Below the pieces are notes generated by a model that was not told the DNA's origin, did no database searches, and was given only the letters and a program-made list of their open reading frames with translations. Shown here one piece after another: positions 142 through 9,460 of a stretch of DNA of 9,538 nucleotides. Source of the DNA: JBFLXN01 sp040755715 [NCBI: Candidatus Edwardsbacteria bacterium] (GTDB taxonomy: Bacteria > Edwardsbacteria > AC1 > JBFLXN01). The stretch lies in contig JBFLXN010000108.1 of assembly GCA_040755715.1 (NCBI GenBank), positions 1 to 9,538 of the forward strand, read 5' to 3'. The position numbers and the translations under genes were made by a program. Each line of letters starts with the position of its first letter. The stretch's first letter is position 1.

Positions 142-170
142 TTGACAGCAAGTCAAAAATTTAGTATACT
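142..170 (+). promoter_or_regulatory. Consensus sigma70 promoter of the tRNA-Leu transcript
   Basis: TTGACA at 142-147 and TATACT at 165-170 are separated by 17 bp. The -10 box ends 9 nt before the first base of the interrupted tRNA-Leu at 180, so transcription would begin almost at the tRNA 5' end. It lies just 16 bp outside the IS boundary, so it is a chromosomal promoter rather than an IS promoter. Confidence 0.85.
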
Positions 171-202
171 TTTCTTGCCGCCGAGGTGGTGAAACTGGAA
201 GA

Positions 203-323
203 CCTGCCCGCCTATGCCTGCGCCGGAGTGGTGGAATTGGGAGACACGCAGCGTTCAGGGCGCTGTGAGCGTAAGCTCGTGAGAGTTCAAATCTCTCCTC
301 CGGCATAGCCGTAGGTAGGCGGG
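203..323 (+). mobile_element. 121-nt insert carrying a whole tRNA between complementary arms
   Basis: The insert splits the outer tRNA-Leu and contains a complete second tRNA-Leu. Its ends are complementary: GCCCGCCTA (206-214) pairs perfectly with TAGGCGGGC (316-324), and after a TG bulge CCT (217-219) pairs with AGG (313-315), giving 12 bp in all. A competing pairing is CTATGCC (212-218) with GGCATAG (302-308), which would mask the inner acceptor end. The arms resemble the GC-rich hairpins elsewhere in this window, so a palindromic element that captured or carries a tRNA is a reasonable guess. Whether it is mobile is inference. Confidence 0.6.
222..305 (+). tRNA. tRNA-Leu(CAG), inner gene nested in another tRNA-Leu
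   Basis: This is an 84-nt class II tRNA with all stems perfect. The acceptor is GCCGGAG (222-228) with CTCCGGC (298-304), and the D stem is GTG (231-233) with CAC (245-247). The anticodon stem is CAGCG (249-253) with CGCTG (261-265), loop TTCAGGG and anticodon CAG at 256-258. The variable arm is 266-280 with GAGC/GCTC, and the T arm is 281-297 with loop TTCAAAT. The discriminator is A305. CCA is not encoded (TAG follows), so it would be added by nucleotidyltransferase, unlike the outer gene. It carries the same anticodon as the gene it interrupts and differs clearly in acceptor, anticodon stem, variable arm and T stem, so it is not a simple local duplication. Confidence 0.93.
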
Positions 324-392
324 CACGCATGGTTCAGGGCCATGTGCCTGCAAGGGCATAGGGGTTCAAATCCCCTCCTCGGCACCATAATA

Positions 393-525
393 AAAATCAA
401 ATATCAAAATGCAAAAAGACAAATCAAAATCCATCCGCCTCAGGTGGATGGATTCTTGGTTTGTCCCGCCATAGCGGGATCCTGCATTTGCGGTGATAAT
501 TTTAATTTTTGATTTTTGATATTAT
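393..525. repeat. Nested imperfect palindrome between tRNA-Leu and tyrS
   Basis: The whole spacer between the tRNA CCA and the tyrS stop folds on itself. AT-rich arms (TCAAATATCAAAAT-like at 393-410, TTTTTGATTTTTGATATT-like at 505-523) enclose AAATGCA (407-413) with TGCATTT (483-489) and GACAAA (418-423) with TTTGTC (460-465). Inside are two hairpins. One has a 13-bp stem, 428-440 with 442-454, with a single G-T pair. The other is TCCCGC (464-469) with GCGGGA (474-479). It lies between convergent genes and may end transcription both ways, but no uridine run follows the GC hairpins, so it is not a standard intrinsic terminator. Confidence 0.6.
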
Positions 526-1745
526 TTTGGCACTATCTTTAGGAACCTTCGCTTGCCTACCTTTATTACTATCGGCTTCTTCAACGATAGTTCTTTCTCT
601 ATATCCGAAATCATCTCCCCATCTATCTCCACCGCACCTTGTTGAATCAACCTTCTGGCGTCACTATTTGTCTTCACCAGTCCAGTTTCTACTAACAATC
701 GCACCAACCAAATCTTTTTTCCTGCTTCTATTCTGTATTCCTCAATCTTTTCTGGCAATCCCTTCTCCTTAAAAATTCTGTCAAATTCCAACTCCGCTTT
801 TTCCGCCGCTGCCTTTCCGTGATATAAACTGACTATCTCTTTGCCCAGGCGGGCTTTGAAGTTTCTGGGATTTTCTCCTTTTGAAAGGGCTGTCTTAATT
901 TTTTCTAAGTCTGAAGAAGAAATTTCCGTAGCCAATTCAAAGTAGTGGACGATTATATTATCTGGAATGGACATAATCTTGCCAAAGATTTCTTTTGGCG
1001 ATTCGGTAATGCCAACATAATTACTCAGAGATTTCCCCATTCTTTTCACGCCGTCAATGCCTACTAAAATCGGCATAGTCACCGCTACTTGAGGTTTTTG
1101 ACCATAATAGATTTGCAGTTCCCGACCCAATAGGAGGTTAAACTTCTGCTCTGTCCCACCCAATTCCACATCCGCTCTAATGGCTACCGAATCATATCCT
1201 TGAAATAGAGGATAGAGAAACTCATGAATGCCGATGGGTCTACTTTCCTTAAAGCGTATGGAAAAATCGTCTCTTTCCAACATTCTGGCCACTGTTTGAA
1301 AGGAGCAAATTTTCACTATCTCAAAAGGAGTGAGTCTTCCGAGCCATTCACTATTACAGCGAAATTCTGTCTTTTCCACATCTAAAATTCTCCCGACTTG
1401 TTCTTTATAGGTAGCCATATTAGTTTTGACCTCTTCTTCGCTCAGTTGTCTTCTGGTGGCAGCCCGACCAGACGGGTCTCCAATTCTGCCGGTAAAATCA
1501 CCGACAATAAAAACAACCTGGTGTCCGAGTTGCTGGAAATCCCGCAGTTTCCGAATGACGACGGCGTTGCCCAGATGGATATGTGGACTGGAAGGGTCCA
1601 CTCCGAGTTTTATCCGCAGTGCCTTCTTTTGTCTTCCGGCTTCCTCAAGTTTCTGAAAGAGTTCTGCCTCAGGCACAATTTCCGCTGTGCCTTTTTTAAT
1701 AAATTCTAGTTGAGTGGTGATATCCATTTGTCTTCTATCTTTCAT
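522..1745 (-). CDS. tyrS: Tyrosine--tRNA ligase (TyrRS)
   Basis: The enzyme charges tRNA-Tyr with tyrosine in the cytoplasm (class I synthetase, works as a dimer). The 407-residue product has the Rossmann-fold signature as HIHLGN at 55-60 and the KMSKS-equivalent loop as KRMGKS at 234-239. The tyrosine pocket region YPLFQGYD (178-185) and ADVELGGTEQ (191-200) is present, and an S4 RNA-binding domain occupies about 338-407. The HxGN plus KMGKS form and length fit the TyrZ-like bacterial subgroup. Two starts are possible, M1 (1745) and M7 (1727); M7 begins MDITTQLEFI as relatives do, and neither has a strong ribosome binding site. M1 lies only 3 nt after the stop of the toxin remnant upstream, so tyrS may be co-transcribed from the antitoxin promoter. 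No T-box leader is visible. Confidence 0.95.
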   Translation of the reverse strand: MKDRRQMDITTQLEFIKKGTAEIVPEAELFQKLEEAGRQKKALRIKLGVDPSSPHIHLGNAVVIRKLRDFQQLGHQVVFIVGDFTGRIGDPSGRAATRRQLSEEEVKTNMATYKEQVGRILDVEKTEFRCNSEWLGRLTPFEIVKICSFQTVARMLERDDFSIRFKESRPIGIHEFLYPLFQGYDSVAIRADVELGGTEQKFNLLLGRELQIYYGQKPQVAVTMPILVGIDGVKRMGKSLSNYVGITESPKEIFGKIMSIPDNIIVHYFELATEISSSDLEKIKTALSKGENPRNFKARLGKEIVSLYHGKAAAEKAELEFDRIFKEKGLPEKIEEYRIEAGKKIWLVRLLVETGLVKTNSDARRLIQQGAVEIDGEMISDIEKELSLKKPIVIKVGKRRFLKIVPK

Positions 1746-3038: not shown

Positions 3039-6000
3039 ATGAAAAACACAAAATCAGAAAACCAAGATTCCCTTTTCAAATTAGCAGATAATCTTGCGGC
3101 GGAGACAAAAAAACTGGTCCGCCAAACCAAAACCGAAGAAGATTTAAGGATTGGATTTGAGAAACTTTTAGAGCCAATTTTAAAAGAATTGGGAATTAAG
3201 CCAAATCCCAAATACGAAAAGTCAATTTATAATTCCGGGCGTTCTGACGCACTCCACGGTCAGGTGGTAATTGAATATGAACTTCCGCATGCATTTAAAT
3301 CACAAAAATCTATTAACCACGCTTATGAGCAATTAGTCGGTTATATTCAAAAACTTTCAACATCTGAAAAAGAAACCTTATTTTTGTTTGAGTCTAAATT
3401 TGTAGGTGTTGGTTTTGACGGCGATAAAATCTTTTTTGTCCGCTACAAAGGAGATAAAAGCAAGGCAAAGATTGAACTACATACTAAAGACTTTATTTTA
3501 ATTGGACCTTATGATTTTGATGAGAACAGTGCCCGGACTTTACTTACACACCTGCGGGCTTTAGCCCGACTCCCCTTGACTGCCGAAAATCTGGCTGATA
3601 AATTTGGGCCGAAAAGTGAGCTGGCACCAAAAGCAGTCTCCGCTTTTGCTAATTCCTTAGAGTATTGGGGTGACCAAACAAGAGTTCGCACATTTTTTAA
3701 TGAGTGGAAGCGCTTGTTTGGAATTGTTTATGGTGAACAGTTTAGTGGCTACCAAGAAAAAGAAGTGGAAGCACTTGCTACACTTTACAAGGTCGGCAAA
3801 GAAACGGATTTTCAGGAACTTTTATTCTCCGTTCATACTTACTTTGCTTTTTTGATGAAGCTTATTGCTGCTGAACTTCTAACATTAAGAGAAACAGCCC
3901 TCAGCTCTTCACTTGCTTCTGAACTTGCCCATATTTCTGAAGACAAACTCAAAAGACAGCTTGAGGATATTGAGGACGGCGGTATTTATGCCAGAAAAGG
4001 AATTACAAATTTCTTAGAAGGCGACTTTTTCCGCTGGTATCTTGATGCTTGGTCACCACGTCTTAAAGAAGCAATCCAAGAAATCACCAGAGCGCTTTCC
4101 GAATTTGAACCAGCGACAAGTACTTTAGACCCAACCTCTACTCGTGACCTTCTCAAAAAACTCTATCAATATTTAGTCCCGCAGGAAGTCCGGCATCGTC
4201 TCGGCGAATATTACACGCCTGATTGGTTGGCAGAGTTATTGTTAAATGAAGTCGGCTATGATGGCCATAATTTTAAGCGGGTTTTGGACCCTGCCTGCGG
4301 TTCAGGGACATTTTTAGTTCTGGCAATTCAGAGAGCAAAGGAATGGGGAATAAAAAATAGACGCCCAGCACTTGAAATCGCAAAAAACATCAAAGCCAAT
4401 ATTGGGGGATTTGATTTAAATCCTCTGGCAGTCATTGCCGCTCGCACTAATTATCTTTTTGCTTTGGGCGATTTGGCGAATGAATTATCAGATTTAGAGG
4501 TGCCAATTTACTTGGCTGATTCTGTGTTATGGCCAGAGCAAGTGGGCGTCCAAGGAAAATTAAATTTCTATGGTGAACATATCAAAGTGAAAACTTCTGC
4601 AAAAGAATTTCATGTTCCGTCTATCTGGGTGAAAGATAAAGGATTTTTAATGAAAGACGCCGCTCAATTCGTTGAGAAATTTGCAAAGAGTGGTTTTGAA
4701 CCAGAAATAGCGATGAAGCATTTTAAAGAAAAAGGGTTAGTATTTCCGCCGCATGAGAAAACCGTAGAGAATTTCTATAAAGAAATTTTAGACCTTGAAA
4801 AACAGAACCAGAACGGCATCTGGGCTCGCTTTTTGAAAAACGCTTTTGCGCCAATGGTCGCTGGTCAATTTGATTTTGTCGTTGGCAATCCCCCGTGGAT
4901 TAGGTGGGATTATCTTGCGCAGGAATATAGAGAAGCAACAAGACATCTCTGGAAAGATTACGGATTATTTTCGCTTAAAGGATATGCACAAATGCTTGGT
5001 GGTGCAAAACCAGATTTTTCAATGCTATTTGTTTATGCCTCGTCTGATTATTACTTAAAAGATGGTGCGAAATTAGGATTTTTAATAACTCAAGAAGTTT
5101 TCAAGTCAAAAGGTGCTGGAGAAGGTTTTCGGAGATTTCAACTTGGAGATAAAAAACATCTTAAAGTAGTCAAATCTCATGATTTAGTGACTGTACAACC
5201 ATTTGAAGGGGCAGCTAACAAAACTGCGGCAATTATTCTTAAAAAAGGAGAGAAAACAGAATATCCAGTTCCTTACATTATTTGGAATAAGAAAAAAGGT
5301 GTAGGTAAAATCGCCACGGATAAGTTATTAGATGAAGCTTTGTCCTTATTAAGCAGAAAAAAGTTAATAGCAAAACCAATAAAAACAAATGTTGGTGCTT
5401 GGCAAACTATTGAGGCTGGGGAGGACAATTTACTTAGTATTGAAGGTCAAAATTATTATAGGGCACGAGCAGGTGCGTGGGCCGACCCTTACGGAATTTT
5501 CTGGCTTGAGATAAAACAAGTATTGTCTGATGGTAATTTACTCGTAACTAATCTAGTTGAGAGAGGAAAAACAAAAATCCAAAAAGTTGAGGATAAAATA
5601 GAATCAGATTTGGTGTATCCCGCTATTTCGGGACCAGATATTCAACGATGGGGTATTGAGCAGAGTCTTTTTGTTCTCCTTGTTAATGATAGAAATAATC
5701 CGATGAGAGGTTACCCTGAGTTGGTCATGAAAAACAAATGGCCTCTTACTTTTAGTTATTTAACACGATTTCGAAACGAATTACTACAACGGACATCCTA
5801 TAAAAAATTCCATGCTAAGTTAGAAGCACCTTTTTATAGCCAATACAATATCGGCGATTATACATTTTCTCGATATAAAGTTGTTTGGAAAAGAATGACT
5901 ACTGATATTGTGGCGGCTGTGATTTCTGAAATAAAAACAATGTTTAATTATAAGCAAGTAATCTCTCTTGATACTACTGTTATTTTTCCGGTTGATAATG

Positions 6001-6308
6001 AATCCGAAGCCCATTATCTTTGTGCTATTATCAATTCAAAGCCAGTGCGTGATTTTATCAAATCCTTTTCTTCTGCTGGCCGTGGCTTTGGCACGCCTTC
6101 GGTAATGGAGCATATTGGCATTCCCAAATTTGACCCCAAAAAGAAACTCCACCAAAAACTTGTGGAAATCTCTAAAAAGTGCCACCAGCTTAAATCCGAC
6201 CTGCTCGCCGAAGGCTCAGCGAAGGTGGAAGGCAAAGAAAAGCAAATTGAAAAATTGGAAAAAGAAAATGATGAATTGGTAAGAATTTTATTTGGTATTA
6301 AAAAGTAA
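3039..6308 (+). CDS. Single-chain restriction-modification enzyme, Eco57I-type adenine methyltransferase
   Basis: The 1089-residue protein resembles type IIG/IIL enzymes that join nuclease, methyltransferase and target recognition in one chain. Residues 1-170 look like a PD-(D/E)xK-type module: GRSDALHGQVVIEYE with D70, E79 and E81, where the usual final lysine is glutamate. A helical linker leads to LGEYYTPDW (388-396) and the methyltransferase core. Motif I is DPACGSG (417-423), which binds S-adenosylmethionine; FDLNP is at 458-462; the catalytic motif IV NPPW is at 617-620, the form used by N6-adenine methyltransferases. Roughly 750-1040 should be the target recognition region, and the last 45 residues are charged and coiled-coil-like. 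It has its own promoter and no specificity, helicase or other R-M genes beside it. A methylation-only role is possible if the nuclease is inactive. Confidence 0.8.
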   Translation: MKNTKSENQDSLFKLADNLAAETKKLVRQTKTEEDLRIGFEKLLEPILKELGIKPNPKYEKSIYNSGRSDALHGQVVIEYELPHAFKSQKSINHAYEQLVGYIQKLSTSEKETLFLFESKFVGVGFDGDKIFFVRYKGDKSKAKIELHTKDFILIGPYDFDENSARTLLTHLRALARLPLTAENLADKFGPKSELAPKAVSAFANSLEYWGDQTRVRTFFNEWKRLFGIVYGEQFSGYQEKEVEALATLYKVGKETDFQELLFSVHTYFAFLMKLIAAELLTLRETALSSSLASELAHISEDKLKRQLEDIEDGGIYARKGITNFLEGDFFRWYLDAWSPRLKEAIQEITRALSEFEPATSTLDPTSTRDLLKKLYQYLVPQEVRHRLGEYYTPDWLAELLLNEVGYDGHNFKRVLDPACGSGTFLVLAIQRAKEWGIKNRRPALEIAKNIKANIGGFDLNPLAVIAARTNYLFALGDLANELSDLEVPIYLADSVLWPEQVGVQGKLNFYGEHIKVKTSAKEFHVPSIWVKDKGFLMKDAAQFVEKFAKSGFEPEIAMKHFKEKGLVFPPHEKTVENFYKEILDLEKQNQNGIWARFLKNAFAPMVAGQFDFVVGNPPWIRWDYLAQEYREATRHLWKDYGLFSLKGYAQMLGGAKPDFSMLFVYASSDYYLKDGAKLGFLITQEVFKSKGAGEGFRRFQLGDKKHLKVVKSHDLVTVQPFEGAANKTAAIILKKGEKTEYPVPYIIWNKKKGVGKIATDKLLDEALSLLSRKKLIAKPIKTNVGAWQTIEAGEDNLLSIEGQNYYRARAGAWADPYGIFWLEIKQVLSDGNLLVTNLVERGKTKIQKVEDKIESDLVYPAISGPDIQRWGIEQSLFVLLVNDRNNPMRGYPELVMKNKWPLTFSYLTRFRNELLQRTSYKKFHAKLEAPFYSQYNIGDYTFSRYKVVWKRMTTDIVAAVISEIKTMFNYKQVISLDTTVIFPVDNESEAHYLCAIINSKPVRDFIKSFSSAGRGFGTPSVMEHIGIPKFDPKKKLHQKLVEISKKCHQLKSDLLAEGSAKVEGKEKQIEKLEKENDELVRILFGIKK

Positions 6309-6390
6309 AGAAATCGCTCGAATCGGACGATCCCCGCCCAAAGGGCGGGGCTTTCCGCCCGATTCGTGGCTTCGCCACCGCGATTTCTTT
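6307..6390. repeat. Branched palindrome at the stop codon of the R-M gene
   Basis: There are four nested or adjacent stems. The outer stem, AAAGAAATCGC (6307-6317) with 6380-6390, is a perfect 11 bp. CGAATCGG (6319-6326) pairs with CCGATTCG (6359-6366) and encloses CCCCGCCC (6332-6339) with GGGCGGGG (6343-6350). A side hairpin TGGC (6367-6370) pairs with GCCA (6374-6377). The outer stem starts on the last two bases of the TAA stop. It may end the transcript, but only a mixed T-run (TTTCTTT) is present. The nested look suggests palindromes inserted within palindromes. Confidence 0.75.
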
Positions 6391-9412: not shown

Positions 9413-9424
9413 TGTTAGCTAAAT

Positions 9425-9460
9425 TTCAAAAGTGAACCATTTAAACTTCAAAAGTGAACT
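9425..9460. repeat. Two inverse copies of the IS subterminal motif
   Basis: TTCAAAAGTGAAC occurs at 9425-9437 and, with a further T, at 9447-9460, 22 bp apart. It is the reverse complement of the pair at 66-113. The inner copy overlaps the transposase 3' end and encodes part of its last residues (FTFEV). Confidence 0.8.

Follow-up and report, generated by a model that had tools for sequence, protein, structure and literature searches.

The 9,538-nt contig JBFLXN010000108.1 of a Candidatus Edwardsbacteria genome, referred to here in its full length as the window, carries at positions 180–387 a complete tRNA-Leu(CAG) gene lodged inside another tRNA-Leu(CAG) gene. This nested arrangement is probably a self-compensating insertion of one tRNA gene into another, in which the resident gene is being replaced from within. 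We consider replacement from within the most likely explanation because a parallel case in other bacteria has empty, filled and decayed stages.

Anatomy of the nested tRNA genes

Direct reading of the sequence revealed that the outer tRNA-Leu(CAG) spans 180–387 and is interrupted by the inner gene. Its 5′ part (180–203, forward strand; direct reading and ARAGORN) comprises the acceptor 5′ strand GCCGAGG and the D-arm up to base 23, while the 3′ part (325–387, forward strand; direct reading and ARAGORN) comprises the end of the D-stem, the anticodon, variable and T-arms, the acceptor 3′ strand CCTCGGC and ACCA. The fold of the joined sequence and a comparison of the junctions place between them an insert of 121 nt (204–324, forward strand), consisting of an 18-nt left flank, the 84-nt inner tRNA and a 19-nt right flank. 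The inner tRNA-Leu(CAG) (222–305, forward strand) is complete without an encoded CCA according to ARAGORN, obtains 48.7 bits with the Rfam tRNA model and is assigned by an isoacceptor profile. Joining 180–203 to 325–387 resulted in an 87-nt sequence that ARAGORN recognises as a complete tRNA-Leu(cag), every arm being paired and CCA being present. A preceding sequence-only reading of this DNA had proposed the nesting itself, the restoration of a perfect 87-nt tRNA with CCA upon removal of 121 nt, and an insert holding a different 84-nt tRNA with the same anticodon and no CCA; direct reading and the ARAGORN calls on the window and on the joined sequence confirmed these proposals, and the sizes given for the two outer pieces, 42 nt and 82 nt, are correct.

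The inner and outer tRNA have the same anticodon (CAG in CAG) and are identical at 63 of 83 aligned bases; they are not copies of each other. The arrangement of two D-arms did not arise in any of 200 dinucleotide shuffles of the window. On the uncut sequence, the Rfam tRNA model gave no call for the outer gene, and ARAGORN returned a false tRNA-Leu at 308–387 composed of the outer 3′ part and bases of the insert. Given this false call, automatic annotation could list two tandem tRNAs at the nested site.

Two equivalent placements of the cut exist, 202/203 with 323/324 or 203/204 with 324/325, which lie one C apart and each remove 121 nt. A split at the border of D-loop and D-stem, as originally described, holds for one of these placements, whereas the other sits one base inside the 3′ strand of the D-stem. 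Apart from this 1-nt ambiguity no target duplication is present, which would argue against the commonest transposons. The two flanks of the insert are mutually complementary, reading CCCGCC/GGCGGG, and contribute to a perfect 10-bp inverted repeat that starts at the junction. Flank comparison located its left arm, TGCCCGCCTA, at 205–214 and its right arm, TAGGCGGGCA, at 316–325 (both on the forward strand); the right arm ends on the base with which the outer 3′ part starts. Each arm occurs once in the window, and when the flanks were shuffled 200,000 times, 121 of the shuffles contained an inverted repeat reaching 10 bp.

With the anticodon masked, the inner tRNA falls into the CAG rather than the GAG class by 22 bits. 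For the outer tRNA the profile favours CAG by 7.8 bits, and its nearest genes by identity are GAG genes (0.815). In a leave-one-out comparison, 26 GAG genes scored up to 6.1, and 36 of 38 CAG genes scored above 7.8, the other two reaching −8.1 and 3.7, so that the assignment of the outer tRNA to CAG is weak. The candidate explanation of the outer tRNA as a mutated tRNA-Leu(GAG), suggested by its anticodon stem and by the tyrS synteny of a locus described below (L082), was set aside, with the profile weakly favouring CAG and identity favouring GAG. The anticodon stem and CCA of the outer tRNA are also found in other CAG genes of the compared set.

A parallel locus in Omnitrophota

The double D-arm pattern, restricted to Leu-type D-arms, was searched in 384 genomes of the Omnitrophota group, which yielded two matches, both at the same locus between tRNA-Lys(ttt) and tRNA-Gly(gcc). 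Eleven genomes of one order were then compared with tRNA annotation. Four of them (L220, L221, L222 and L223) have an intact resident tRNA-Leu(tag) at this locus; ARAGORN gives no tRNA-Gly in the L221 stretch. In three others (L206, L207 and L208) the site is filled, with a different tRNA-Leu(tag) situated between the 5′ acceptor strand and D-arm of the resident and its 3′ acceptor strand, and in L207 the D-loop of the resident is itself interrupted. A further three (L209, L210 and L211) have the newcomer as the sole tRNA-Leu reported at the locus, of which L209 may, judged by eye, retain a degraded remnant of the resident. The remaining genome (1/11) gave no match at the locus.

The newcomer of L206 matches the other five newcomers at 80–83 of 84 bases, and shares 63 identical bases each with the residents of L223 and L222 (77 and 79 ungapped columns in alignments of 89 and 87 columns, respectively). 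In all three filled sites, the seven acceptor bases of the 5′ remnant have exactly one perfect complement within 130 nt past the inner tRNA, followed by an A, and the anticodon arm of the resident is unrecognisable by eye. The remnants (L206:1500–1720, L207 and L208) also display by eye a CCGCC/GGCGG palindrome at the T-loop position, and related palindromes are scattered in those genomes. No intact resident-type gene elsewhere was found among the further matches of the six newcomer-bearing genomes. The acceptor stem of the remnants is not the same in every genome (GGGCGGA, GCGGACG), and the versions correspond to different intact residents, so that the insertion may have happened once or twice. 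The perfect partners of both stems were also considered as a sign of selection for compensated acceptor stems after insertion, an idea that was abandoned because both stems occur in intact residents. Here, too, the anticodons agree (TAG in TAG), with that of the resident inferred from sister genomes. The series suggests that a newcomer replaces the resident tRNA gene from within while the resident decays.

Separately, the locus L219:1585–1690 (genome G572) holds an intact tRNA-Leu(CAG) followed by an apparent 3′ tRNA-Leu fragment that ends in ACCA and has its T-loop split by a palindromic repeat, as judged by eye.

Transcription and course of the proposed replacement

A sigma-70-like promoter, TTGACA-17-TATACT (142–170, forward strand), matches the consensus at 11 of 12 positions and stands 9 nt before the outer tRNA; positions 1–700 of the window contain three promoter-like sites, compared with 1.2 expected from shuffles. 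Among the tRNA-Leu genes of the loci fetched in this study, 42 of 68 have a promoter matching at least 10 of 12 positions at a distance of 7–37 nt, and 28 of these 42 have it at 7–13 nt. The inner tRNA starts 51 nt past the −10 box of the outer promoter, and within 70 nt upstream of it no site scores higher than 4 of 12. The 9-nt spacing and the weak site before the inner tRNA indicate that the promoter looks like that of the outer gene, with the inner gene riding along. Judging from consensus match and spacing, the inner tRNA may depend on this putative promoter, and the earlier proposal of one consensus promoter common to both tRNAs is supported.

According to the replacement reading, a short DNA carrying a tRNA-Leu(CAG) between complementary flanks would have become inserted in the D-arm of the resident gene, itself a tRNA-Leu(CAG), and the insertion would have been tolerated because the newcomer brought the same specificity. 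The resident promoter would drive a single transcript across both tRNAs, from which cleavage by RNase P at 222 and trimming of the 3′ end at 305 would free the inner tRNA to read CUG codons in the place of the resident; since the newcomer would thereby take over both promoter and codon of the resident, the cell would survive. The outer tRNA, cut by the release of the inner one, would be a passenger and recent relic whose gene is expected to decay like the Omnitrophota residents. The event looks recent, which would explain that the outer gene is still perfect, and the window thus appears to hold an earlier stage of replacement with both genes intact. A rule linking the two cases would be that a needed tRNA gene can tolerate an insertion that supplies the same specificity, and both cases obey it.

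Several observations weigh against this reading. Searching related genomes for filled and empty sites had been proposed with the original description; neither a filled nor an empty site orthologous to that in the window was found in the WOR-3 group, where filled sites amounted to 0 of 147 genomes. Likewise, decay of the outer tRNA in relatives, which had been named as an observation that would refute the original description, was seen in Omnitrophota and not at an orthologous site. The support lent by the empty, filled and decayed Omnitrophota states, on which the self-compensating alternative mainly draws, comes from another locus, phylum and anticodon, where no outer anticodon arm is recognisable by eye, so that it illustrates the outcome and not the nested step. 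Because the search pattern was limited to Leu-type D-arms, the agreement of leucine in leucine is partly built in, leaving the anticodon agreement as the independent part, and the rule of equal specificity rests on two cases, which are few. The outer tRNA of the window is free of any decay, as would be expected just as much if it were functional. Finally, three viral loci with 5′ remnants indicate that a tRNA fragment can come to lie before a whole tRNA without any nesting.

These three loci, from IMG/VR, match the double D-arm pattern and were considered as nested tRNAs in viruses, yet turned out to be 5′ remnants before an intact tRNA with no recognisable outer 3′ half. In each of the viral contigs (L094, L095 and L203) a tRNA-Leu 5′ half lies directly upstream of an intact tRNA-Leu; L094 contains 25 tRNA calls in 12 kb, one of which is reported as tRNA-Pyl. 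Among 214 tRNAs counted in fetched loci, 7 had a Leu- or Ser-type D-arm within 80 nt upstream, corresponding to the three viral loci and to two Omnitrophota loci that were each fetched twice, L207 having escaped the count owing to its interrupted D-loop. Searches of phage and plasmid records gave 2 and 3 matching records, respectively, none covering 80% of the query, and the insert flanks found 0 and 1 exact matches in viral contigs, the one being L146.

Alternative explanations

Of the alternatives, the one that survives best, unlikely as we judge it to be, is a two-piece outer tRNA. The 42-nt and 82-nt pieces, held together by the 7-bp acceptor stem and the junction helix, would serve as a second tRNA-Leu(CAG), whether or not they are joined, and the inner tRNA would amount to an intron that RNase P and 3′ processing remove. 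This explanation is favoured by the integrity of every outer arm and by the inverted repeat beginning at the junction, as well as by the predicted cofold of the two pieces into the outer cloverleaf plus junction helix (−66.0 kcal/mol), in which binding at 37 °C amounts to −18.9 kcal/mol compared with −10.4 kcal/mol without the flanks. However, 9 of 300 shuffled flanks bind as strongly as the real ones, the best reaching −23.5 kcal/mol, and the pairing of the outer halves is not exceptional since 67 tRNA-Leu genes of the fetched loci, cut at the equivalent position and without flanks, bind at −17.0 to −6.4 kcal/mol (median −11.4). For the whole region 180–390, the minimum-energy structure (−101.7 kcal/mol, z = −4.89) contains the two cloverleaves and a helix that links them. 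In the predicted ensemble of 180–387, acceptor and anticodon stems form with high probability in either tRNA (0.75–1.0), while the two T-stems and the junction helix lie at 0.32–0.45 and the innermost junction pair at 0.10; the probability of the junction helix in the uncut precursor, at most 0.44, speaks against the two-piece tRNA, as does the decay of the outer gene at the Omnitrophota locus. Cuts by RNase P and RNase Z leave 3′-OH and 5′-phosphate ends, and to our knowledge no bacterial ligase for tRNA ends of this kind has been described. The earlier proposal that the outer tRNA is rebuilt from halves thus draws on the folding prediction, whereas controls come out nearly as strong and no relative with both tRNAs intact was found. 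That the outer tRNA would exist permanently as two pieces held by base pairing, with the inner tRNA as its intron and two leucine tRNAs obtained from one nested gene, seems slightly less likely still.

A decay in two steps, in which a palindromic repeat first killed the outer gene and the inner tRNA later entered the palindrome, has in our estimation a smaller chance again. It would account for the complementary flanks CCCGCC/GGCGGG, and two further palindromes of this kind occur in the window (463–480 and 6332–6350); the palindrome seen by eye at the T-loop position of the Omnitrophota residents, with related copies scattered, points in the same direction. Yet the outer gene has no damage that an earlier loss would have left. 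Moreover, the two 10-bp arms do not occur as a close pair or as the full palindrome in any of the 147 WOR-3-group genomes, and a looser form was counted from the result table at 45 sites in 29 of the 147 genomes (one genome with 9 copies) compared with 107 sites for the reversed control. These counts also led us to reject the idea that the palindrome is a REP-type repeat characteristic of the WOR-3 genomes.

An assembly artefact or strain chimera is very improbable. The arrangement is read from an assembled contig that has opposite-orientation repeat copies containing AGTTCACTTTTGAA near both of its ends (67–121 and 9413–9460), which are usual assembly break points. These repeats, however, fall outside 180–387, and an artefact at the nested gene would need two false joins that jointly restored the outer tRNA to the base.

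The least probable explanation is a dedicated splicing of the outer gene, by a group I intron or by archaeal-type bulge-helix-bulge cleavage with the tRNA in the intron being incidental: exact excision would indeed give a perfect tRNA, but no group I or II intron family was among the 7 Rfam matches to 130–480 up to E = 5, 84 of the 121 nt are tRNA and leave no space for a catalytic core, and the predicted fold places junctions 203/204 and 324/325 within helices rather than in 3-nt bulges, so that the modelled structure does not correspond to a bulge-helix-bulge. The insert fits no known intron type.

Neighbouring genes and search for the same site in relatives

The convergent neighbour of the tRNA unit is tyrS, encoding tyrosine-tRNA ligase (TyrRS; 522–1745, reverse strand), as identified by domain and tree analysis. 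Downstream of the tRNA unit, a terminator-like hairpin, AATCCATCCGCCTCAGGTGGATGGATT (428–454, forward strand), was noted; it is a weak candidate, with one found compared with 0.9 expected in shuffles. In an 81-row tree, the TyrRS of the window pairs with a sequence titled WOR-3 (support 96/87). Its best matches in 100 WOR-3 genomes are 57–60% identical, the value of 60% referring to a fragment. By this placement the contig probably belongs to WOR-3 or a neighbouring lineage, and none of the genomes compared was a close relative. No closer TyrRS was found among the other named loci or in 6 genomes of another group, and a TyrRS search in viral contigs yielded nothing. A 23-base stretch of the window was matched with one mismatch in 1 of 45 genomes, and two Leu-type D-arms as close as in the window were found in none of the 147 genomes of the WOR-3 group.

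Within the WOR-3 group, the locus L082 has a lone tRNA-Leu(GAG) at 1404–1487 convergent with tyrS, as in the window. Among 20 annotated tyrS neighbourhoods of the group, several of which end at contig ends, it is the only one with such a tRNA-Leu. In another locus, L163 (genome G162; 540–680 and 1440–1570), an intact tRNA-Leu(GAG) is accompanied about 900 bp away by a copy that, by eye, seemingly lacks the T-arm and 3′ end.

Further along the window, 3039–6308 encodes a 1089-aa protein in which N6-adenine methylase and Eco57I-type domains were recognised. Two small genes nearby (1903–2187 and 2375–2659) code for DUF433 and DUF2442 domains, and the DUF2442 gene is weakly similar to the DhiA antitoxin, far under the curated cut-off.

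Relation to known systems and implications

Known systems share single traits with the nested gene. Group I introns of bacterial tRNA genes, among them tRNA-Leu(UAA) of cyanobacteria and others, likewise interrupt a bacterial tRNA-Leu that is restored by exact removal; according to passages in PMC4033280 such introns are self-splicing ribozymes, the majority located at 37/38 beside the anticodon, and cyanobacterial introns are the subject of passages in PMC5733544. In contrast, the cut in the window lies in the D-arm, the insert is a tRNA and no ribozyme was matched. In archaeal split tRNA genes (Nanoarchaeum equitans, Caldivirga), halves are likewise brought together by complementary flanks, and the split of tRNA-Glu(UUC) of C. 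maquilingensis at 25/26, as given in a passage of PMC4090602, is close to the cut at 23/24 in the window. The archaeal halves are separate transcripts that become joined through a splicing endonuclease at a bulge-helix-bulge, whereas the window has one presumed transcript and no such predicted motif; the complementary flanks thus constitute a resemblance to split tRNAs in possible working and not membership.

A third comparison is with integration. Mobile elements that integrate into tRNA genes restore the 3′ end, so that in their case as well the invading DNA itself provides for the function of the tRNA gene it enters. The insert in the window differs from these elements in its length of 121 bp, in having the tRNA as its only gene, in the lack of a target duplication beyond 1 nt, and in providing a whole second tRNA instead of a restored 3′ end. 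The replacement of a tRNA gene by a newcomer with the same anticodon corresponds to the outcome at the Omnitrophota locus and to the outcome expected in the window, and we know of no report in which the newcomer entered inside the gene being replaced. Searches of the open-licence literature for tRNA genes that are nested, inserted or interrupted brought up no case of one tRNA gene within another; the one paper containing the phrase ‘nested tRNA’ (PMC8124441) deals with a tRNA-Sec inside a protein gene.

As many tRNA genes are single-copy and essential, the replacement of one tRNA lineage by another is hard to catch. If the incoming tRNA lands within a predecessor of the same anticodon, every step can pass without loss of function, and the nested stage can later be recognised from its remnants, as exemplified by the Omnitrophota order. 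A tRNA within a tRNA also offers a natural setting in which to ask whether a nicked tRNA is usable in bacteria.
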